64,000 nt of DNA from Vicinamibacteria bacterium (GTDB lineage Bacteria; Acidobacteriota; Vicinamibacteria; Vicinamibacterales; UBA8438): the NCBI GenBank assembly GCA_022820825.1, contig JAJEEU010000024.1, positions 62,001-126,000 of the forward strand, in the 5' to 3' direction. Under the pieces are notes generated by a model. That model saw nothing but the letters and a program-made list of their open reading frames with translations. It searched no databases and had not been told where the DNA came from. Positions within the stretch are counted from its first letter, which is position 1. Each line of letters starts with the position of its first letter. Shown piece after piece: positions 2,468-44,935 of the stretch. A program made the translations under genes and the position numbers.

Positions 2468-3286
2468 TTGTTCAGGATTCGCAGGGGCTGCGCCGTGGCG
2501 GACGCGATTCGCGAACTTCTTGTCGTACTGCACGTCTCCACCGGGTTCGTGGGTCTGGCAGCGTTCTGGATTCCCGCCGTCGCGCGCAAAGGCGGACGCC
2601 TGCACGTTGCCGCCGGGCGCGTGTTCAGCGTGTGCGCCTACGTTGTGGCCCTGAGTGCCCTCGGCTCGGCTTCATGGGCGCTGTTGCATCCGACCAGTTG
2701 GTGGGGACGGGGACCGGTCAGCCTTGTTGATATTCCGGCTGGCGAGATCATGCTGATCGCCATCCTCGGTTTCCTCGCCCTGATTGTGCTCAACAGTGTC
2801 GAGACCGGCCTCCGCGCGATGACGACGCGCCGGCGGCCCGAGGAGTTCGCCGGGTGGCGCCTGCAGCTCGTCGGCCTGGCGCAGGCCGCCGCCAGCGTGG
2901 CGCTATTCGTATTCGGCCTCTTCCACGTTGTGCGGGGCAGTGGCCTCTTCTGGATCCCCGTGGCGCTCGGGGCTGCCGGCATCGCCGGCTATGTCCAGGA
3001 TCGCCGTTTCCTTGCCGATCCCCGCCCCACACCGATGGCGTGGTGGTACAAGCACATGGAGGGAATGATCGGGTCCGGCATCGGCTTTCACACCGCTTTT
3101 CTGGTCTTCGGTTGGCAGCGTTTGTTCGGCGAAGGACTCATTGAGGGTACGTGGTGGTTCTTGCCCTGGATTCTGCCGTCCGCCGTTGGAATCGTGGTGC
3201 TCCGTGTATGGACGCGCTTCTACATGCGGAAGTTCGGAGAGCTGCCGGAACAGGTCGCGCACGCAGGACGCGTGACATACTCTTGA
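2468..3286 (+). CDS. Multi-pass membrane protein of unknown function (DUF2306-like)
   Basis: 272-aa ORF with several hydrophobic segments; ends next to the M50 protease gene. Confidence 0.55.
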   Translation: MFRIRRGCAVADAIRELLVVLHVSTGFVGLAAFWIPAVARKGGRLHVAAGRVFSVCAYVVALSALGSASWALLHPTSWWGRGPVSLVDIPAGEIMLIAILGFLALIVLNSVETGLRAMTTRRRPEEFAGWRLQLVGLAQAAASVALFVFGLFHVVRGSGLFWIPVALGAAGIAGYVQDRRFLADPRPTPMAWWYKHMEGMIGSGIGFHTAFLVFGWQRLFGEGLIEGTWWFLPWILPSAVGIVVLRVWTRFYMRKFGELPEQVAHAGRVTYS

Positions 3287-3287
3287 A

Positions 3288-4013
3288 GTGATGTCCTATC
3301 TCGTCGTCATCCTCATCGTTGGCTTGCTCATCGTGATACATGAGCTCGGCCATCTTCTGGTCGCGAAGCTGTGCAGGATTCCGATTGCGCAGTTCTCCAT
3401 CGGCTTTGGGCCGAAGCTGCTCGGCCGGAAGTGGGGGGAGACCACCTACCTGATTTCGGCGGTCCCGATCGCGGGATACGTGTTGCCGGCGCTCGATGAG
3501 CGTGAAGCGCGCGAGCATCCGGTCTCCAACCGCATCCTGTTCGCCCTGGGAGGACCGTTCGCAAACGTCGTTGCCGCCTTCGCCGGTCTGCTTGCCCTCG
3601 GCGTCATGGAGCTTGGGTTGGGCGTGACCGAGGCGGCCGTATTCGCGACGACCGGGATCTGGACGAACGTGGGCCAGCTCGCGACCGCCCTGTCGACCCT
3701 GTTTGCTGAGCCGAGTCAACTGAGCGGAATCGTCGGTATCGTGGCGATCGGCGGCTCGCAGTTCGGTTCGACCGTTGCCGGCCTGCTGACGTTTTCCGTA
3801 TTCATCAACCTGAACCTGGCGGTGCTGAATCTTCTGCCGCTGCCACCGCTCGACGGCGGAAAAATCCTGTTCTGCCTGCTCGAGAAGATCTGTCAGCCCC
3901 TGACCCGGGTCCAGATGCCGGTCACACTCGCCGGGTGGGCCTTCGTCCTGGCGGTGATGGTCTACGCCACGATTCAGGACCTCCAGAGAATCGCCGGCGG
4001 TTTGTTCGCTTAG
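3288..4013 (+). CDS. M50 (site-2 protease/RseP-like) membrane metalloprotease, short form
   Basis: HELGH zinc motif and NLLPLPPLDGGKI second motif; no evident PDZ domain. Confidence 0.85.
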   Translation: MMSYLVVILIVGLLIVIHELGHLLVAKLCRIPIAQFSIGFGPKLLGRKWGETTYLISAVPIAGYVLPALDEREAREHPVSNRILFALGGPFANVVAAFAGLLALGVMELGLGVTEAAVFATTGIWTNVGQLATALSTLFAEPSQLSGIVGIVAIGGSQFGSTVAGLLTFSVFINLNLAVLNLLPLPPLDGGKILFCLLEKICQPLTRVQMPVTLAGWAFVLAVMVYATIQDLQRIAGGLFA

Positions 4014-4032: not shown

Positions 4033-4413
4033 TCACAAGCAATGGGCGCCGTCCACCCGCGACAACTTCCGGTCGAACGTACCTACCGGAAGGTGCCCCG
4101 CCTTGCGGGCTATCTCGACGACGAGGCAGTCGGAGAATCCGGTCGATCGCGTGCCGCTGAAGGCGGCGCGCGCCCTCCGGACGACGTCCTCATCCTGCAG
4201 GGTCAAACGCTCGTGGTCTATGAGCATGCCTACGACAGTTCCGATGCGGCGGCGGTGTAGGCCGTAGACGGACTGTAGGACCCAGATGGTTTCCACGAGC
4301 ACAGGTAGAGAAATCCACGCCCCGTGTTCCACGAACGCCTCGGCGCGGGCAACCTGATCGGGATCGTCGCGCACTAGCAGACGGACAAGAACGTTGGTGT
4401 CAACCGCGCGCAT
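4033..4413 (-). CDS. PIN-domain VapC-family toxin
   Basis: MRAVDTNVLVRLLVRDDPDQV N-terminus, PVLVETIWVL, TGFSDCLV; overlaps the antitoxin gene. Confidence 0.88.
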   Translation of the reverse strand: MRAVDTNVLVRLLVRDDPDQVARAEAFVEHGAWISLPVLVETIWVLQSVYGLHRRRIGTVVGMLIDHERLTLQDEDVVRRARAAFSGTRSTGFSDCLVVEIARKAGHLPVGTFDRKLSRVDGAHCL

Positions 4414-4660
4414 GACTGCGCCGCATTCTGGACCGAATGCCCTCGTCCATATCCTCGATGCTTCTACGCGCCGGTGGGGCGGTGAAGACGGCCTTGTGGA
4501 TGTCGAGCGACGAGTACTTCGTGGCCCGCCGGACGATCACGTCGTCACCCCGCTCGCACCACTCGACCGTGGCGCCGGGCGTCAGTCCCAGCTTGCGGCG
4601 AATTCGCGCGGGGATCGAGACCTGACCTTGAGAGGTGAGCTTTGATTCGATCGATTCCAT
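4400..4660 (-). CDS. AbrB/MazE-type (VapB) antitoxin
   Basis: ESKLTSQGQVSIPARIRRKLGLTPGATVEW SpoVT/AbrB motif; immediately upstream of VapC. Confidence 0.88.
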   Translation of the reverse strand: MESIESKLTSQGQVSIPARIRRKLGLTPGATVEWCERGDDVIVRRATKYSSLDIHKAVFTAPPARRSIEDMDEGIRSRMRRSHARG

Positions 4661-4730
4661 GTGCGTTCCCCGTCCACGAAGTGCTTCAACATCGTCGCAT
4701 TCATTACCGGGGTAAATCAAGTGTCAGCGC

Positions 4731-4862
4731 CTAGCGCCACTTGAAGAGCTTGAGCGCCAGGAAGAAGCTCGCGGCGCACCAGGCGGCGAGGATGAGCAGC
4801 TCCGGGCCGGTCGCGAGGATGCCGTTGCCATCGAGCATGACGCTGCTCAGTGCGTCGACCAG
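4731..4862 (-). pseudogene. Diverged copy of the last 44 codons (with stop) of the ABC permease at 6149-7201
   Basis: 132 bp aligned to 6149-6280 with 8 mismatches; begins exactly at the stop codon; translates LVDALSSVMLDGNGILATGPELLILAAWCAASFFLALKLFKWR*. Confidence 0.85.
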
Positions 4863-4928
4863 CTTCTATATTTCGTTTATGATCGAAATCTTTTGTAGAT
4901 CGCGATATTATTCGTTTGTATCTGAATT

Positions 4929-6152
4929 ATGGAGTTGCTGCGCCAGCGATACCTCGACCGTCTCCGGCAGTTGCTGGACGCCCCCGCCATCACCGCGGTG
5001 ACGGGCATCCGGCGGGCCGGAAAGAGCGTCCTGCTGCGGCAGTTCGCGGCCGCGTTGCGCGACGAGCGGCAGGTGGTCTACGTCGACAAGGAGTCGTTCG
5101 CGTTCGAGTCGCTACGGACGGCGCGCGATCTGATCGACCACGTGGCGTCCGCCACGCGACCGGGCGAGCAGCGGGTGGTGATCGTCGACGAGGTGCAGCA
5201 GATCGCCGACTGGGAACGCGCGGTCGCCTCGCTGAACGGCGAAGACCGCACCCAGGTCGTCATCTCCGGCTCCAACGCCACGCTGCTGTCGGCCGAGCTC
5301 GCGACGCTGATCGCCGGCCGCTACGTCACGCTGCAGGTCTTTCCGCTTACGTTGGCCGAGTTCGGCGACCTGTACCGGCAGCGTCCCGGCGCCGCGGCCG
5401 ACGACGCCGAGCTGTTCCGGCTCTACCTGCGCATCGGCGGTCTGCCGGGACTGCTCCACACCGACCTCAGCGATCCGGTCGTCGACCAGATGTTGGCCGA
5501 CATGGTCAGCACTATCGCCATCCGGGACGTGATCCGGCGTCACCGCATCCGCGACGTGGCCCTGTTCGAGGCGATCATGCGGTTCGCGGTCGACAGTATC
5601 GGCAGCCTGGTGTCCGCGAAGCGCATCGCCGACTTCCTGAAGAGCCAGCGCCGAAGGGCAGCGGTCGATACCGTGCTCAACTACCTCGCGCACCTGGGCG
5701 ACGCGTTCCTGCTGACGGCCGTTCCGCGCTTCGATCTGCAAGGTCGACGGCTGTTGCAGGTGAATCAGAAGCACTACCTGGGCGACATCGGCCTGCGCAA
5801 CGGGATCATCGGCTACCGCGAGAGCGACATCGGCGGCATCCTGGAGAACCTGGTCTTCCTGGAGTTGCGCCGCCGCGGCTACACGGTGACGGTCGGCGTA
5901 GCAGGATCGCGAGAGATCGACTTCGTCGCGGAACGGCGGTCCCGGCGCCTTTACGTGCAGGTTGCCTACCTGCTCGAATCGCCAGCCACGATCGAGCGTG
6001 AGCTCGCGGCCTTCGCCGCGGTTCGCGACGCCTACCCCCGCGTGCTGCTTTCCCTCGACCCGCACCAGCCCGCCGACCTTCAGGGCGTGCGGCACCAGTC
6101 CTTGACCGACTTCCTGCGCGGCGCTCCGCTCGAGGCTTCAGCGGAGGTCTAG
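4929..6152 (+). CDS. AAA ATPase with DUF4143-type C-terminus
   Basis: Walker A TGIRRAGKSVLLRQ, Walker B VVIVDEVQQI, VVISGSNA sensor; C-terminal REIDFVAERR nuclease-like segment. Confidence 0.88.
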   Translation: MELLRQRYLDRLRQLLDAPAITAVTGIRRAGKSVLLRQFAAALRDERQVVYVDKESFAFESLRTARDLIDHVASATRPGEQRVVIVDEVQQIADWERAVASLNGEDRTQVVISGSNATLLSAELATLIAGRYVTLQVFPLTLAEFGDLYRQRPGAAADDAELFRLYLRIGGLPGLLHTDLSDPVVDQMLADMVSTIAIRDVIRRHRIRDVALFEAIMRFAVDSIGSLVSAKRIADFLKSQRRRAAVDTVLNYLAHLGDAFLLTAVPRFDLQGRRLLQVNQKHYLGDIGLRNGIIGYRESDIGGILENLVFLELRRRGYTVTVGVAGSREIDFVAERRSRRLYVQVAYLLESPATIERELAAFAAVRDAYPRVLLSLDPHQPADLQGVRHQSLTDFLRGAPLEASAEV

Positions 6153-7201
6153 CGCCACTTGAAGAGCCTGAGCGCCAGGAAGAAGCTGGCGGCGCACCAG
6201 GCGGCGAGGATGAGCAGCTCCGGGCCGGTGGCGAGGAGGCCGTTCCCGTCGAGCATGACGCTGCGCAGGGCGTCGACCAGGGCGGTGAGCGGCAGCGCCT
6301 GTATGAACGGCTGGAGGGGGTCGGGGAAGTTCGACGCGGCGAAGAAGATCCCTGAGCAGATCCACATGGGCGCCATGACGACGTTCATGATGCCGGATAT
6401 GCCCTCGATGGTCTGCGCGCGGCTGGCGGTGAGCAGGCCGATGCCGCTGAACGTCATCGCGCCGAGCAGGGAGACGGTGCCGAGCGTGACCAGCGAGCCC
6501 TCGATCGGTACGCCGAACATCAGGCGGGCGAAGCCGACGAGCGCCGCCACCTCGAGTCCGAGCAGCACCAGGCGCGCCGCGACGAGGGCGGCCAGGTACT
6601 GGTAGCGCCGCATCGGCGTCGCGATCAGCCGCTTCAGCATCTTGCGGGTGCGCTGCAACACCAGCGTGAACCCGACGCCCCACATGCCGGTGCCCATGAT
6701 GTTCATTCCGAGCAGGCCGGGGATCAGCCAGTCGATGTAGCGGCTGCCGGTGGCGGTCACGGTTTCGTCGCGGCCGGTCCAGACGTCCTTGCGGCCGGCG
6801 GCGCGCTGCAGCAGGTCGTCGACGGTCTGCCGCGCCAGCCGGCTTTCCGAGCGGATCGGGTCGAAACGGTAGCGCGGGGGATCGCCGGGCACGACCACGA
6901 GGTGCGCCAGCCCGTCGCGCAGCGCGGTCTCCGTGCCGCCGGGATCGACCGGGATGATCTCGATGCTCTCGTGGGCCGCCAGGGTGTCGGCCAGCTCGGT
7001 CGCGCCGGCTCCGGGTTCTACCGCGACCGCCACTTGCGTTTCGGACGGGGTGCGGAATGCGATGCCCAGCGCGAGCGCCATGAGGAGCGGGAAGACGAAG
7101 ACCCAGAAGATCATCTCCGGCTCGCGCACCATGACGAGCAGCCGGGTGATGGTCATCTCGACGAACGGATGGCGCGGCTGCGCGGAACGGGTCTCAGTCA
7201 T
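6149..7201 (-). CDS. ABC-2 type transporter permease
   Basis: N-terminal TM plus a cluster of C-terminal TMs; paired with the ATP-binding subunit upstream. Confidence 0.85.
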   Translation of the reverse strand: MTETRSAQPRHPFVEMTITRLLVMVREPEMIFWVFVFPLLMALALGIAFRTPSETQVAVAVEPGAGATELADTLAAHESIEIIPVDPGGTETALRDGLAHLVVVPGDPPRYRFDPIRSESRLARQTVDDLLQRAAGRKDVWTGRDETVTATGSRYIDWLIPGLLGMNIMGTGMWGVGFTLVLQRTRKMLKRLIATPMRRYQYLAALVAARLVLLGLEVAALVGFARLMFGVPIEGSLVTLGTVSLLGAMTFSGIGLLTASRAQTIEGISGIMNVVMAPMWICSGIFFAASNFPDPLQPFIQALPLTALVDALRSVMLDGNGLLATGPELLILAAWCAASFFLALRLFKWR

Positions 7202-8207
7202 CGCGCAGTCGGTGTCCGGTCAGCGCCACGAAGACGTCTTCCAGCGTGGCGGTGCGTGTCGCGAGCGTCTCGATCTCCGTGCCCATCTCGGCCGCCGCCC
7301 GGGCGAGCGCCGGCAGCGTCCTGTGCAGGGCCGCGGCGGTGACGGTCCAGGCCCCGGAGGATTCGCCCGCGCGCACGGTGTCGACGTCGGGGAGCGCGGC
7401 GAGCCGTTCCTGCAGATCGGCGGACTGCGACTCCGCGCCGCCGGCGAACGCGACCTCGACGATGTGTGGCGCGCCGATGGAGAGGATCAGCTCGTCGGGG
7501 CTGCCCTCGGAAACGAGCTTTCCGTAGTCGACGATAGCGATCCGGTCGCACAGCACGTGGGCCTCATCCATGTAGTGGGTGGTCAGCAGGACGGTGCCCC
7601 CGGCGGCGCGATAGCTCTGCAGCACCGCCCACAACTGCCGCCGCGCCTGCGGATCCAGCCCGGTGGTCGGCTCGTCGAGGAAGAGCAGCTCGGGATCGCC
7701 GACCAGGGCACAGCCGACGGCAAGACGCTGCCGCTGTCCGCCCGAGAGCTTGCCGACCCAGCTCCGGCGCTTGCCGTCCAGCTCCAGCAGCTCCAGGACG
7801 GCGTCTACCGAACGGCCGCGCGGATAGAACGACCGGAAGAGCCGGAGCGTCTCGATGACGGTCAGCTTCTCGTCGAGCTGCGATTCCTGGAGGTGAATCC
7901 CGAGCCGCGCCCGGAGCGCGTCGTCTTGCTCTCCCCATGCGCACCCCAGGACCCGCACGCGGCCGGCATCCGGCGCGAGCAGCCCCTCCAGGATCTCGAT
8001 GGTCGTGGTCTTGCCGGCGCCGTTCGGACCGAGCAAGCCGAAGCACTCGCCGCAGCGCACCTCCAGGTCGAGACCGTCGACCGCCAGCACGTCGCCGTAG
8101 CGCTTGACGATGCCGGTGCAACTCAGGGCCGGCTCCGCGGGTGCGGTCGTCGGCTGCTCCGGGCGCACGGCGTCCTCGACGGGGGCAGGGGGAGTGGGTG
8201 ACAGCAT
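7194..8207 (-). CDS. ABC-2 type transporter ATP-binding protein
   Basis: GPNGAGKTTTIEIL, LSGGQRQRLAV, LLFLDEPTTGLD; overlaps the permease start. Confidence 0.92.
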   Translation of the reverse strand: MLSPTPPAPVEDAVRPEQPTTAPAEPALSCTGIVKRYGDVLAVDGLDLEVRCGECFGLLGPNGAGKTTTIEILEGLLAPDAGRVRVLGCAWGEQDDALRARLGIHLQESQLDEKLTVIETLRLFRSFYPRGRSVDAVLELLELDGKRRSWVGKLSGGQRQRLAVGCALVGDPELLFLDEPTTGLDPQARRQLWAVLQSYRAAGGTVLLTTHYMDEAHVLCDRIAIVDYGKLVSEGSPDELILSIGAPHIVEVAFAGGAESQSADLQERLAALPDVDTVRAGESSGAWTVTAAALHRTLPALARAAAEMGTEIETLATRTATLEDVFVALTGHRLRDD

Positions 8208-9066: not shown

Positions 9067-9246
9067 ATGGCGCCCGCATCGTCCTGAAGTGCAAGCGGAA
9101 CAAGATCAGCTCGCAAGTGGCGGCCGAACGGGCTCCCGGCAGACACGGGGGGGCTTTCTGCCACGGGACTGACAGGTTCTGACACACCGCGTGGTTACGC
9201 TTCAGGGTTCCGCGCTACTCCATGCGTGGCAGAAGGGAGTGTGACC

Positions 9247-10254
9247 ATGCAGATCATCCAGGACACCCTGGCGGGGCTACAGATCGGCGAGCCGGTCGTC
9301 CATCGGCAGATGGCGATGTTTCCGCTGCTCGGCAAGCAGGCCGGCGGCGGGGAGCGGGCGTACCTGACGCTGGACGAGGCGCTGGGGGCGGCGTGGGCGG
9401 AGGTGGGCGAGGTGTCGGAGGGCGGCAGCGTTCCCGAGTTGTTGTTCAAGAACCCGGGCGATAAGCCGGTGCTGCTGGTGGAGGGGGAGGAGCTGGTGGG
9501 TGCCAAGCAGAACCGCACGCTGAACGTCTCGATCCTGGCGCCGCCGAAGAAGGAGACGTTGATACCGGTGTCCTGCGTCGAACGTGGGCGCTGGGGATAC
9601 GACGACGGTGAGGTGTTCCAGAGCTCGGACCGGGCGCACTACGCGATGGGCCGGCGGGCCAAGCGGGAAGCGGTCAACCGGAACATGAGCCGCGACCCGC
9701 AAAGCCGCCATGCCGACCAGGGCGCGGTGTGGGCGGAGATCGACGCGAAGATGGCGACGATGGCCGCGTGCTCGGACACGGACGCGATGGCCGACATCTA
9801 CGAGCAGCACCGCGGCTCGCTCGACGACTACGTCGGCGCATTCGAGCAGCAGACCGGCCAGGTCGGGGCCGTATTCGTGGTCGGCACGCGCTTCGCGGGT
9901 GTCGACCTGTTCGCGCACGACGAGACATTCGGGGTGCTGCTGCCGAAGCTGCTGCGCAGCTACGCGCTCGACGCGCTGGAGCTGCGTGCCGGCAAGCCGA
10001 TCGAGCCGCGCACGGATTTCGCGCAGCGGCTGGTGGCCGACGTCCTCGCTGCGCAGGCCCAGAAGTATCCGGCGGTCGGGATGGGTGAGGACGTGCGTAT
10101 CGAGAGCCCGGCCGTTGCCGGCGGGGCGCTGGCGGCGGACGGCGCCGTGGTGCACCTGGCGGCGTTCCGCCGCGACGCGCAACGCGGCCCCGCTGAGGCC
10201 GGAGGATACCGGCGCGCCAGCCAGCGGCGCGCGAACCGCTTGCGGCGGGAGTGA
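9247..10254 (+). CDS. ARPP-1-like family protein
   Basis: LLVEGEELVGAKQNRTLNVSILAP motif recalled from the ARPP-1 family; 335-aa ORF. Confidence 0.65.
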   Translation: MQIIQDTLAGLQIGEPVVHRQMAMFPLLGKQAGGGERAYLTLDEALGAAWAEVGEVSEGGSVPELLFKNPGDKPVLLVEGEELVGAKQNRTLNVSILAPPKKETLIPVSCVERGRWGYDDGEVFQSSDRAHYAMGRRAKREAVNRNMSRDPQSRHADQGAVWAEIDAKMATMAACSDTDAMADIYEQHRGSLDDYVGAFEQQTGQVGAVFVVGTRFAGVDLFAHDETFGVLLPKLLRSYALDALELRAGKPIEPRTDFAQRLVADVLAAQAQKYPAVGMGEDVRIESPAVAGGALAADGAVVHLAAFRRDAQRGPAEAGGYRRASQRRANRLRRE

Positions 10255-10475: not shown

Positions 10476-10634
10476 TCAAAGTCGAAGTTCAACCTGTTCG
10501 ACACCGGCGGGATGGGCGAGTTCTATGAGCAGCATCGCGGGTCGCTTGAAGGCTACGTAGACGCGTTCGAGCGGCAGTCCGGGCACGTCGGGGCCGTATT
10601 CGTGGTCGGCATGCGGTTCGACTACTCCTCGTAG
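10476..10634 (+). pseudogene. Truncated second copy of the ARPP-1-like gene
   Basis: MGEFYEQHRGSLEGYVDAFERQSGHVGAVFVVGMRFDYSS* matches MADIYEQHRGSLDDYVGAFEQQTGQVGAVFVVGTRFAGV of the intact gene. Confidence 0.8.
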
Positions 10635-30712: not shown

Positions 30713-30752
30713 GGAGCCGGGCGGGAGGTCCGGGCCGGAGACACGCGAGGCG

Positions 30753-32681
30753 CTACACGTCCAGGTCCTGCACCTGGTCGGCGCGTTGCATGATGAACCG
30801 GAACCGGGCGGACGGATCGCGTCCCATCAGCTCGTTCATCACGCGGTCGGTCACGAGCTGGTCGTTGACGTCCACGCGCAGGAGCCGGCGCGTCGCGGGA
30901 TTCAGCGTCGTGTCCCACAGCACCTTGGGCATCATCTCGCCCAGCCCCTTGAAGCGCGTGATCTCCGCCTTGCCGCGGTGGCCGTTGCTGGCCGAGCGGT
31001 CCAGGATGCGCTCGCGCTGCTGCTCGTCCAGCGCCCAGAACGTCTCCTTGCCGATGTCGATGCGGTAGAGCGGCGGCTGGGCTAGGTACACGCGCCCGCG
31101 GCTGATCAGTTGCGGCAGGTGCCGGTAGATGAAGGTCAGCAGCAGCGTGGCGATGTGGTTGCCGTCCGAGTCGGCGTCGGCGAGGATGATGACCTTGCCG
31201 TAGCGCAGCTTCGCCAGGTCGAGGTTCTTGCCGAAGCCGCATCCGAGCGCCGTCACCACGTCGGACAGCTCCTTGTTCTCCAGCACCTTCGACGCCGACG
31301 CGGTCTCGGTGTTCATCACCTTGCCGCGCAGCGGCAGGATGGCCTGCCGCTGCCGGTCGCGCGCCTGCTTGGCGGAGCCGCCGGCCGAGTCGCCTTCGAC
31401 GATGAACAGCTCGCGGTCCGCGGGCGACCGCGCGGAGCAGTCGCTCAGCTTGCCCGGCAGGTTCAGGCGCGACGCGGCCGCGCCCTTGCGCGTCACCTCC
31501 TGCTGCGCGGCGCGGCTCGCCGCCCGCGCGCGGGCGGCCAGGATGATGCGCGCCACGATGGCGTTGGCGGCGCTGATGTTGTGGTTGAGCCATTGCTCCA
31601 GGGCGGGCCGCACCGCCGAGTCGAGCGCCTGCACCATCTCCGGGTTGTTGAGGCGGTCCTTGGTCTGACCCTGGAACTGCGGATCGCGCACGAAGATGCT
31701 GAGCACGCCGGTCAGGCCTTCGCGGATGTCCTCGGCGGCGATGGTCACGCCCTTCGGCGACAGGCCGTGCGTTTCGATGAAGTTGCGGATCGCCTTGCCG
31801 ATTCCCGCCCGCAGCCCGCTCTCGTGGGTGCCGCCCGAGCCGGTCGGCACGCCGTTCACGTAGCTCCGGAGGTGCTCGTCGGTCGACTCCGTCCATTGCA
31901 GCACGACGTTGACGCGCCCGCCGCTCTCGTCGTGGTCCTTCGCCAGCGCGAAGACCGCGTCGTGGACCGGCGCCTTGCCGCGATCCTCCACGATGTGCGC
32001 CAGGTAGTCCCCCAGGCCGTTGCCGTGGCGGAAGGTGCTGCGCTCCTTGCCCGCCTCGTCGTCGAAGACCACGCGAATGCCGGCATGGAGGTAGCTGACG
32101 ACCTTCAGGCGGTCGAGGATCAGCTCCGGGTCCAGGGTGGTCCTGGGAAAGATCTTCGGATCCGGCCGGAAGAACACCGTCGTACCGGTGCCGCGCGCCG
32201 GCGCGATGCGCCGCAACGCGGATGCGGGCTTGCCCCGCTCGAACCGCTGCTGCCACTGGTAGCCGCTGCGCTTCGAGGTGGCCACCAGCTCCTTCGACAG
32301 CGCGTTGACCACGCTGGCGCCGACCCCGTGCAGGCCGCCCGCCGTGCGGTACGTCCGGTGCTCGAACTTCCCGCCGGCGTGCAGGGTGGTGAAGATCACC
32401 TGCAGGGCGCTGGCGCCGCTCTTCGGGTGCTTGTCCACGGGTATCCCGCGTCCGTCGTCGGTGACCGTGATCGACGACCGGTCGGCGTGCAGCGCCACCT
32501 GCACGTTCTGGGCGTGGCCGTTCATCGCCTCGTCCACGGCGTTGTCGAGGATCTCCCAGACGAGGTGGTGCAGGCCGGCCGAGCCGACGCCGCCGATGTA
32601 CATGCCGGGGCGCTTGCGGACCGGCTCCAGCCCGTCGAGGACGGTGATGTCCCGCGCCGTATAGGTTTCTGCCATCGCCAT
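30753..32681 (-). CDS. parE: DNA topoisomerase IV subunit B
   Basis: KRPGMYIG, DNAVDEAMNG, GLHGVGASVVNALS, LFIVEGDSAGGSAKQARDR. Confidence 0.94.
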   Translation of the reverse strand: MAMAETYTARDITVLDGLEPVRKRPGMYIGGVGSAGLHHLVWEILDNAVDEAMNGHAQNVQVALHADRSSITVTDDGRGIPVDKHPKSGASALQVIFTTLHAGGKFEHRTYRTAGGLHGVGASVVNALSKELVATSKRSGYQWQQRFERGKPASALRRIAPARGTGTTVFFRPDPKIFPRTTLDPELILDRLKVVSYLHAGIRVVFDDEAGKERSTFRHGNGLGDYLAHIVEDRGKAPVHDAVFALAKDHDESGGRVNVVLQWTESTDEHLRSYVNGVPTGSGGTHESGLRAGIGKAIRNFIETHGLSPKGVTIAAEDIREGLTGVLSIFVRDPQFQGQTKDRLNNPEMVQALDSAVRPALEQWLNHNISAANAIVARIILAARARAASRAAQQEVTRKGAAASRLNLPGKLSDCSARSPADRELFIVEGDSAGGSAKQARDRQRQAILPLRGKVMNTETASASKVLENKELSDVVTALGCGFGKNLDLAKLRYGKVIILADADSDGNHIATLLLTFIYRHLPQLISRGRVYLAQPPLYRIDIGKETFWALDEQQRERILDRSASNGHRGKAEITRFKGLGEMMPKVLWDTTLNPATRRLLRVDVNDQLVTDRVMNELMGRDPSARFRFIMQRADQVQDLDV

Positions 32682-35199: not shown

Positions 35200-35242
35200 C
35201 GCATATCCGGATGGGGCTGCTATACTCCCCACCGACTGCATT

Positions 35243-35412
35243 GCTCCCGATGATTCCGGGAAGTGGGTGAGACTCCCACACGGTCCCGCCACTGTAAGCG
35301 GGGAGCGGGCGGCACGTCGGCGCCGGTGGGCGCCGGCCACTGTGCTCGACGAGCATGGGAAGGCCTTGCCGTTCCGCTTCGATCCGCGAGTCAGGAGACC
35401 GATCATCGGGGT
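35243..35412 (+). promoter_or_regulatory. Cobalamin (B12) riboswitch
   Basis: GGGAAGTGGGTGAGACTCCCACACGGTCCCGCCACTGTAAGCGGGG core and GAGTCAGGAGACCG B12 box; CCCGATGAT pairs with ATCATCGGGG. Confidence 0.93.
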
Positions 35413-35530
35413 GTTCGCATAACCTGACGGACCGGCCTGCCGGTGCGTGAGATTCGGCGCGTGGATACGCCGAAAGGAGGTTCCCGCCTGCATCCATGCT
35501 GCGAATGATATGGGAAGGGGAGGCGTGTAC

Positions 35531-43498: not shown

Positions 43499-44935
43499 AT
43501 GAGCGACCAGCGGCGGGCGCAACCCGGCTTCGACCGGCGCATTGTGGAAGGCTCGCTGTCGCGCGCCGTCTGGCGCCTGGCCTGGCCCACGATGCTGGCG
43601 AACGTCATCGGCGGGCTGCAGGGGATCGTCGACCAGGCGATGGTCGGGCACTACGTCGGGCACGCCGGCAACGCCGCGATCGGCGTCAGCATGCAGGTGT
43701 TCCTGCTCGTCATCGTCTTCGTCGCGTCGATCTTCACCGGCATGGGCGTGCTGGTCGCCCGCTTCGCCGGCGCGAACGACGCGGACGCGGTCAACCGGAC
43801 GGTGTACCAGGCATTCCTCACGGCGGTGCTGCTGGCGGTCGGCATCCTCGCGCCTGTCGGCTACTTCGCCGCGCCCTTCCTGCTGACGCTGGTCAACGCC
43901 GCGCCCGAGGTGCAGGCCGAGGCGCTGGCCTACATCCGGATCGTGTTCGTGTTCAGCATCGGGATGCTGGTCTTCTTCATGATGAACGGCGCCCTGCGTG
44001 CCGCGGGCGACGCCCGCACGCCGCTGCGTCTCGGCCTGGTGATGACGGCGCTCAACATCGTGCTGAACGTCATCCTCATCCGCGGACTCGGCCCGATCCC
44101 CTCTTTCGGCACGGCGGGCGCCGCCATGGGCACCGCCATCGCCAGCGGCGCCATCGGCGTGGTGTTCATGTCGCTGCTGTTCTCGGGCCGCCTCGTGGTG
44201 CGGTTCTCCGGGACGATGTCGCTGGCGCCGGACTGGCGCGTCATCCGCGAGCTGTTCCGCTTCGGCCTGCCGGCCGGCTTCCAGGGCATCGTCATGAACC
44301 TGGCCGGCGTGCTGCTGCTGCGCTTCATCGGGTCGCTGGAGCACAGCGCCGAGGCGCAGGCCGCCTACGCGGTCGGCTACACGGAGCTGTTCGCCCTGAT
44401 CACGTGGACCTCGGTCGGTCTTATGGGCGCCACGGCGGCGGTGGCGGGGCAGAACCTGGGGGCGGGCCGGCCCGAGCGCAGCGCCCGCGCGGCGCAGGTG
44501 GCGGCGGTCATCGGCCTGAGCAATGCGGCGGTCGTCGGGCTGGCGTTCATCGTCATCCCCCGGCAGTTGCTGGCCGTCTTCGCGCTCGATCAGGGTGTGG
44601 CGTACGAGATCGGCCGCCAGTTGCTCGCCTATCTCGCCGTCTCCGGATTCTTCGTCTCGGTGGCGCTGATCTACACCGGCGGCCTGCAGGGCACGGGCGA
44701 TACCCGCAGTCCGCTCTACATCTCCATCGTGTCCCAGGTAGTCATTCCGATCGGCCTGTGCACCTGGTACTCCCTGGGGCGCGGCCTGCAGGCGGAGGAC
44801 ATCTGGCTGGCCATCGTGCTCGGGCACGTGACGCGCGCCGCGCTCAGCGTCATCCGCTTCCGCCAGGGCAAGTGGCGCGACATCGCCGTCAACATCGGGC
44901 CGGAACCCACGCCGCCGGCGCCGCTGCAATCGTGA
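43499..44935 (+). CDS. MATE-family efflux protein
   Basis: 12-TM ORF; WRLAWPTMLANVIGGLQGIVDQAMVGHYVG. Confidence 0.92.
   Translation: MSDQRRAQPGFDRRIVEGSLSRAVWRLAWPTMLANVIGGLQGIVDQAMVGHYVGHAGNAAIGVSMQVFLLVIVFVASIFTGMGVLVARFAGANDADAVNRTVYQAFLTAVLLAVGILAPVGYFAAPFLLTLVNAAPEVQAEALAYIRIVFVFSIGMLVFFMMNGALRAAGDARTPLRLGLVMTALNIVLNVILIRGLGPIPSFGTAGAAMGTAIASGAIGVVFMSLLFSGRLVVRFSGTMSLAPDWRVIRELFRFGLPAGFQGIVMNLAGVLLLRFIGSLEHSAEAQAAYAVGYTELFALITWTSVGLMGATAAVAGQNLGAGRPERSARAAQVAAVIGLSNAAVVGLAFIVIPRQLLAVFALDQGVAYEIGRQLLAYLAVSGFFVSVALIYTGGLQGTGDTRSPLYISIVSQVVIPIGLCTWYSLGRGLQAEDIWLAIVLGHVTRAALSVIRFRQGKWRDIAVNIGPEPTPPAPLQS

Follow-up and report, generated by a model that had tools for sequence, protein, structure and literature searches.

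When an integrase integrates DNA at a tRNA gene or at the 3' end of a coding sequence, the incoming DNA restores the end of the gene and the old end is displaced. A second known arrangement is insertion with a long target duplication (Nobusato et al. 2000, Gene 259:99, as cited in PMC1643837 and PMC4978471). Non-replicating DNA carrying an end of lacZ has also been found to give, through a single crossover, duplications of that end of 109-950 bp (PMC3240628).

How single-gene defense candidates and toxin-antitoxin pairs move without a transposase is an open question. PDC-S01, in which an ATPase is joined to a PD-(D/E)XK-type domain, is a single-gene phage-defense candidate from the PDC families, which were proposed computationally and are mostly without validation (PMC12988326). 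Since PDC-S01 is reported to rank as the fourth most common defense system in prokaryotes (PMC12988326), the route by which it spreads is of general interest. We found no literature on the mobility of DUF4143 genes.

The permease end, the ATPase and their neighbors

The window (the whole stretch of 64,000 nucleotides analyzed here, from a draft genome of 108 contigs) contains a 132-bp direct repeat at 4731-4862 and 6149-6280, with 8 differences (93.9% identity). The repeat consists of codons 308-350 and the stop codon of an ABC-2 permease gene, and the permease stop codon is the end point of both copies. It is the longest direct repeat in the first 14 kb of the window (blastn E about 1e-53), and no further copies of it were found elsewhere in the genome. 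Read from the permease to the detached copy, the differences are five synonymous changes and R313S, L322I and R345K, exactly as in the original prediction, which had been made from the sequence and its reading frames. Its description of the block between the copies was also correct: this block holds exactly a 66-bp AT-rich leader and the ATPase gene, with no integrase gene or att core. The ATPase stop codon, TAG at 6150-6152, lies inside permease copy B (CTAG at 6149-6152) and, therefore, the last bases and the stop of the ATPase gene were supplied by the permease end. The features are listed in Table 1.

Table 1. Features of the duplicated permease end and of three further displaced gene ends
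Feature	Position	Strand	Remarks
PIN-domain toxin / MazE-like antitoxin pair	4033..4720	-	PIN and MazE_antitoxin matches; beyond the displaced end
Displaced copy A, permease 3' end	4731..4862	-	43 codons + TAG, detached, no start; 94% to 6149-6280
AT-rich ATPase leader	4863..4928	+	Aligned leaders; nucleotide homology between loci starts here, not in copy A
AAA_14 + DUF4143 ATPase, 407 aa	4929..6152	+	Pfam; PADLOC PDC-S01; alignment; stop within copy B
Copy B, functional permease 3' end	6149..6280	-	Abuts ATPase end; distance 0 to stop codon
ABC-2 type permease gene, 350 aa, intact	6149..7201	-	Relatives at 83% and 62% identity, same 3' end
ABC transporter ATPase, permease operon	7194..8207	-	Co-syntenic in relatives (6149-8152 at 83-85%)
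SDR gene	C32:41141-41983		Displaced end 44697-44886, beyond a 2.8-kb segment
PQQ/disaccharide-hydrolase gene	C107:22532-25045		Displaced end 30749-30834, beyond 5.7 kb
DUF4143 ATPase	L150 (G012)		MNT-HEPN fusion gene between its end and the displaced end; displaced end frameshifted

Relatives have a single permease end with other DNA downstream, and their identity in this segment does not exceed about 79%. The PIN/MazE-like pair is 79% identical to G018:C74:151544-152235, and this similarity stops at 4720, 10 bp before copy A. The pair is a second mobile unit. It is the native neighbor beyond copy A and, because the homology breaks off so close to that copy, the permease of the recipient allele may itself have been followed by a different insert.

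The ATPase gave Pfam matches above the cut-offs to AAA_14 (1.4e-27) and DUF4143 (2.1e-16), and its best PADLOC match was PDC-S01 (PDLC04787, 2.1e-129). Like members of that family, it is encoded by a single gene, with the AAA_14 ATPase followed by DUF4143; the alignment shows Walker motifs and an EIDFVA...YVQV stretch. Structure prediction gave a mean pLDDT of 52 and was left out of the analysis, and a sequence search of the PDB returned no match for the protein. Family membership suggests a PD-(D/E)XK-type domain and makes the ATPase a candidate in defense against phages. Copies of DUF4143 ATPases number 34-42 per genome in G012, G013, G019 and G023 and 16 in the genome of the window; some genera of the same bacterial family have zero.

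Several other repeats were seen in the window. The start of the PIN toxin gene is copied (2375-2441 and 4346-4412, 62-67 bp, 82-84% identical) at a distance of 1.9 kb, across ORF 2468-3286 and an M50 peptidase gene from the PIN gene. An interspersed repeat of about 165 bp at 1991-2159, with inverted ends at 1991-2017 and 2133-2159, has many copies in related genomes (81-93%) and looks like a small non-autonomous element. A 121-bp direct repeat (9775-9895 and 10500-10620, 83%) was also found, and its second copy resembles a residual piece of the neighboring gene 9226-10254. The sole Rfam match in the window was a cobalamin riboswitch at 35234-35421 (RF00174, 82 bits).

Mobility of the ATPase and its flanks

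The ATPase is about 92% identical at the amino acid level in other genera (G006, G013, G018 and G023), compared to 59-83% for their permeases; in G006, the values are 92% and 61%. A 73% identical ATPase occurs in a spirochaete. The ATPase loci in other genera occupy other sites, and nucleotide homology between loci spans the leader-ATPase unit and does not extend past either end of it. In G006, the unit lies within a 2.5-kb insert that immediately follows another gene at its stop codon. This insert is missing at the same site in G002, G010, G022, G023 and G026, and at the site occupied in G023 and G018, remnants are still present in G002 and G012; thus, the ATPase gene comes and goes. Judged by these sequence comparisons, the leader and ATPase together are a mobile unit that is foreign here and spreads horizontally. 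The leader contains two motifs of the form TTCG...CGAA, TTTCGTTTATGATCGAAA (4871-4888) and TTCGTTTGTATCTGAA (4911-4926), and similar motifs are present in most of the ATPase loci compared from other genera. Most simply, they would mark an operator and promoter region.

It had been predicted that flanking copies of a neighboring gene's end accompany this ATPase family, and a lack of such copies around homologous ATPase genes was named as evidence against the idea. That lack is largely what we found. Most homologous ATPase loci have no long flanking repeat, the exceptions being L077 (80 bp) and L076 (384 bp, matching a neighboring HTH gene). Among 83 DUF4143 genes in 75 regions, strong flanking direct repeats were seen only in the window and at L108. 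Three DUF4143 genes were flanked compared to 0.46 expected per trial with random intervals, a count in which two genes represent one event and the window was ascertained, leaving a single event without it. Since most relatives of the ATPase have no flanking copy, the idea that the duplication belongs to the ATPase was rejected. The link to the ATPase falls, and the explanation by gene ends stays.

The repeats at the exceptional loci are of other kinds. At L108, on contig C8 of the same genome, a 135-bp direct repeat (3281-3415 and 7037-7171, 100% identical) comes from inside a SoFic-like gene and is placed on the far side of two adjacent DUF4143 ATPases, near a leader-like region with iterated motifs. 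At L077, the spirochaete locus with the 73% identical ATPase, an 80-bp piece of a glutamate/leucine dehydrogenase gene (3854-3933 and 6603-6681) lies directly upstream of the ATPase leader, and the intact dehydrogenase gene follows about 1.4 kb after the ATPase end. Both junction pieces look like filler DNA. L076 (G019:C165) combines 384- and 111-bp repeats with a second, partial ATPase copy; the nearly full-length copy at this locus has a disrupted N-terminus.

Gene ends bounded by stop codons at other loci

A scan of 1.03 Mb of the same genome, with minima of 50 bp and 80% identity, gave 22 direct and 5 inverted repeat pairs. In 1.74 Mb from this and related genomes, 34 repeat copies lay in genes. 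For five of the 34, the end of the copy was no more than 6 bp away from a stop codon, compared to 0.35 expected under uniform placement and one at a gene start; genes were called by a simple ORF-based method, and the window, which was ascertained, is one of the five. Four of the five are clear cases: the window, the SDR gene, the PQQ/disaccharide-hydrolase gene and the DUF4143 gene of L150. The fifth, L164, is a short-range repeat and, therefore, was not counted. In the further three cases, as in the window, an insert separates the intact end of a gene from a second, displaced one. At C107, the intervening DNA includes genes for a glyoxalase and for a PIN toxin that has a small ORF as its partner. 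In all three of these further cases, the stop codon or C-terminus of the displaced end differs from that of the intact one (LPE-TAA vs LPEG-TAG; AGS vs AGSGDQP before the stop; TGA vs TAG).

Relatives were compared at these loci. G018 appeared to offer a clean empty site for L150, which was rejected because the leader is still present there, indicating a deletion; the comparison suggests that the flank adjoining the displaced end is native. In G002, the SDR gene and the downstream ORF are present and no displaced end was seen. No informative adjacency was found for the C107 locus in relatives. The DNA that separates the MNT-HEPN gene from the end of the ATPase includes a 110-bp stretch (L150:5556-5665) with 77-91% identical copies in related genomes. 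This stretch probably derives from a large protein family and, once more, lies at a junction.

Changes between the paired ends were pooled over the window, C107 and the SDR gene, giving 27 changes in three cases, 18 synonymous and 9 non-synonymous. This ratio differs from the neutral expectation of 72% non-synonymous changes (P=3e-5). It also differs from the value of about 58% that we estimated for one copy decaying from the start (P=0.007, or 0.016 without the window). In the two further displaced ends counted, C107 and SDR, the changes are likewise mostly synonymous. Because of this pooled synonymous excess, most of the divergence probably arose while both ends were functional.

When the differences in the window were polarized on relatives, all three amino acid changes fell on detached copy A, and R313S hits an arginine that is invariant in every relative compared. 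On these few sites, copy A has about 3 non-synonymous to 2 synonymous changes and copy B about 0 to 2-3, which would fit a stranded copy A that was once functional and is now decaying. The stranded end here is probably no longer functional. The original prediction had taken the two segments for independently evolved, functional gene ends. The pooled ratio, too synonymous for neutral decay after duplication, supports a replacement end supplied by incoming DNA, but the replacements on the detached copy speak against both ends still being functional here.

Origin of the displaced ends and comparison with known systems

We propose that the gene end was displaced when the permease gene recombined with a diverged allele in which the insert already followed the stop codon, so that the recipient's old end was stranded; we hold this explanation about equally likely to be right or wrong. 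In a related strain, the leader-ATPase unit would have gone in immediately after the permease stop codon, a position of the kind it has behind another gene in G006. A fragment with the ATPase and the permease 3' end would then have entered the recipient and been joined by homology within the permease coding sequence. Its other end would have joined illegitimately inside the recipient's permease end, at codon 308, where CAG is common to both sides; alternatively, a circularized fragment may have entered by a single crossover. CAG is the only microhomology at the leader junction, as compared with the G006 flank; homology-facilitated illegitimate recombination would leave 3-10 bp at one junction. 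The resulting order is the one observed, with the permease carrying the donor-side end, then the ATPase, and the recipient's old end beyond. As the few polarized sites indicate, the stranded end, now without constraint, would be decaying. On this view, the repeat ends at the stop codon because the donor and recipient share the coding sequence and not the downstream DNA. With one genome per species, no donor strain with the permease-ATPase arrangement and no extra copy was found, and the eight differences in the window are too few to show a crossover point. The internal gene pieces of L108 and L077 do not fit this scheme.

The main rival is insertion with a long target duplication, in which the unit entered the permease 3' end, one event copied 132 bp on both sides and the outer copy decayed. 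It accounts for a block between the copies that is exactly the unit common to other loci and for the outer copy being the decaying one, and the pattern is known for restriction-modification genes of Helicobacter, as far as PMC1643837 and PMC4978471 describe it. However, it leaves the stop-codon boundary in four cases as a coincidence, does not explain the different stop codons of the other displaced ends or the synonymous excess, and is not matched by such a duplication at the other sites of ATPase relatives. Copies that were identical when the unit inserted are disfavored by the pooled changes and by the stops that differ elsewhere; the 8 sites of the window are too few to decide. We consider it possible but somewhat unlikely. 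A tandem duplication that took in the ATPase and the permease end, with later loss of the outer ATPase, would agree with the excess of direct over inverted repeats in this genome and with the partial second ATPase copies in G019. This explanation is improbable, since the deletion would have had to halt precisely at the stop codon and the sequence to the left of copy A, considered as an ATPase remnant and rejected, has no significant similarity to the ATPase end. Slightly less probable still is a random illegitimate insertion of the ATPase with a nearby 132-bp piece copied into the left junction as filler, which has the look of L108 and L077 in its favor but is not expected to end at a stop codon, as four cases do.

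Returning to recombination with an insert-carrying allele, the stranded ends at other loci suggest that ordinary recombination, with no integrase, carries gene-end inserts from one strain to another, diverged one. A broader proposal, which we offer as doubtful, is that 3'-end inserts in this bacterial family spread between strains by exchange of the neighboring gene end and without an integrase, each exchange leaving a stop-bounded "ghost end". The inserts meant include small selfish or defense genes (DUF4143 ATPases, MNT-HEPN and PIN toxin pairs). If true, ghost ends could be a readable record of the transfer of gene modules between strains. When a displaced gene end has a stop codon of its own, it is a scar from which the insertion, the direction of the insertion and a diverged donor can be read. 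Such scars are not rare, as the scan suggests, and the idea can be tested in any well-sampled species.

In its domains, the window ATPase shows no difference from PDC-S01, with the ATPase domain and DUF4143 in both and a putative role in defense. Integrase-mediated integration shares the displaced old end with the window, which differs in its one-gene insert and in the lack of an integrase or att core. The comparison to integration at a gene 3' end, as originally drawn, remains a good description of the end replacement, since the layout recurs with other genes and cargoes and homology stops at the stop codon. The likeness to an integrase is not supported because homologous or illegitimate recombination explains the arrangement without an enzyme. 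Homology-facilitated illegitimate recombination or single crossover, with a homologous anchor and an illegitimate join or a circularized fragment (PMC3240628), is the process proposed here. The lacZ experiment and the window have a partial gene-end duplication in common; in contrast to the experiment, the window represents a natural, old event for which the donor was not found.

Insertion with long target duplication, as far as its citing sources portray it, resembles the window in having a selfish or defense-type gene flanked by long direct target repeats, here 132 bp at 94%, and no transposase or integrase. Unlike the repeats portrayed there, those of the window are gene 3' ends that are bounded by a stop codon and are not identical, and the other displaced ends have their own stop codons. 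The cargo is a DUF4143 ATPase rather than a restriction-modification pair.
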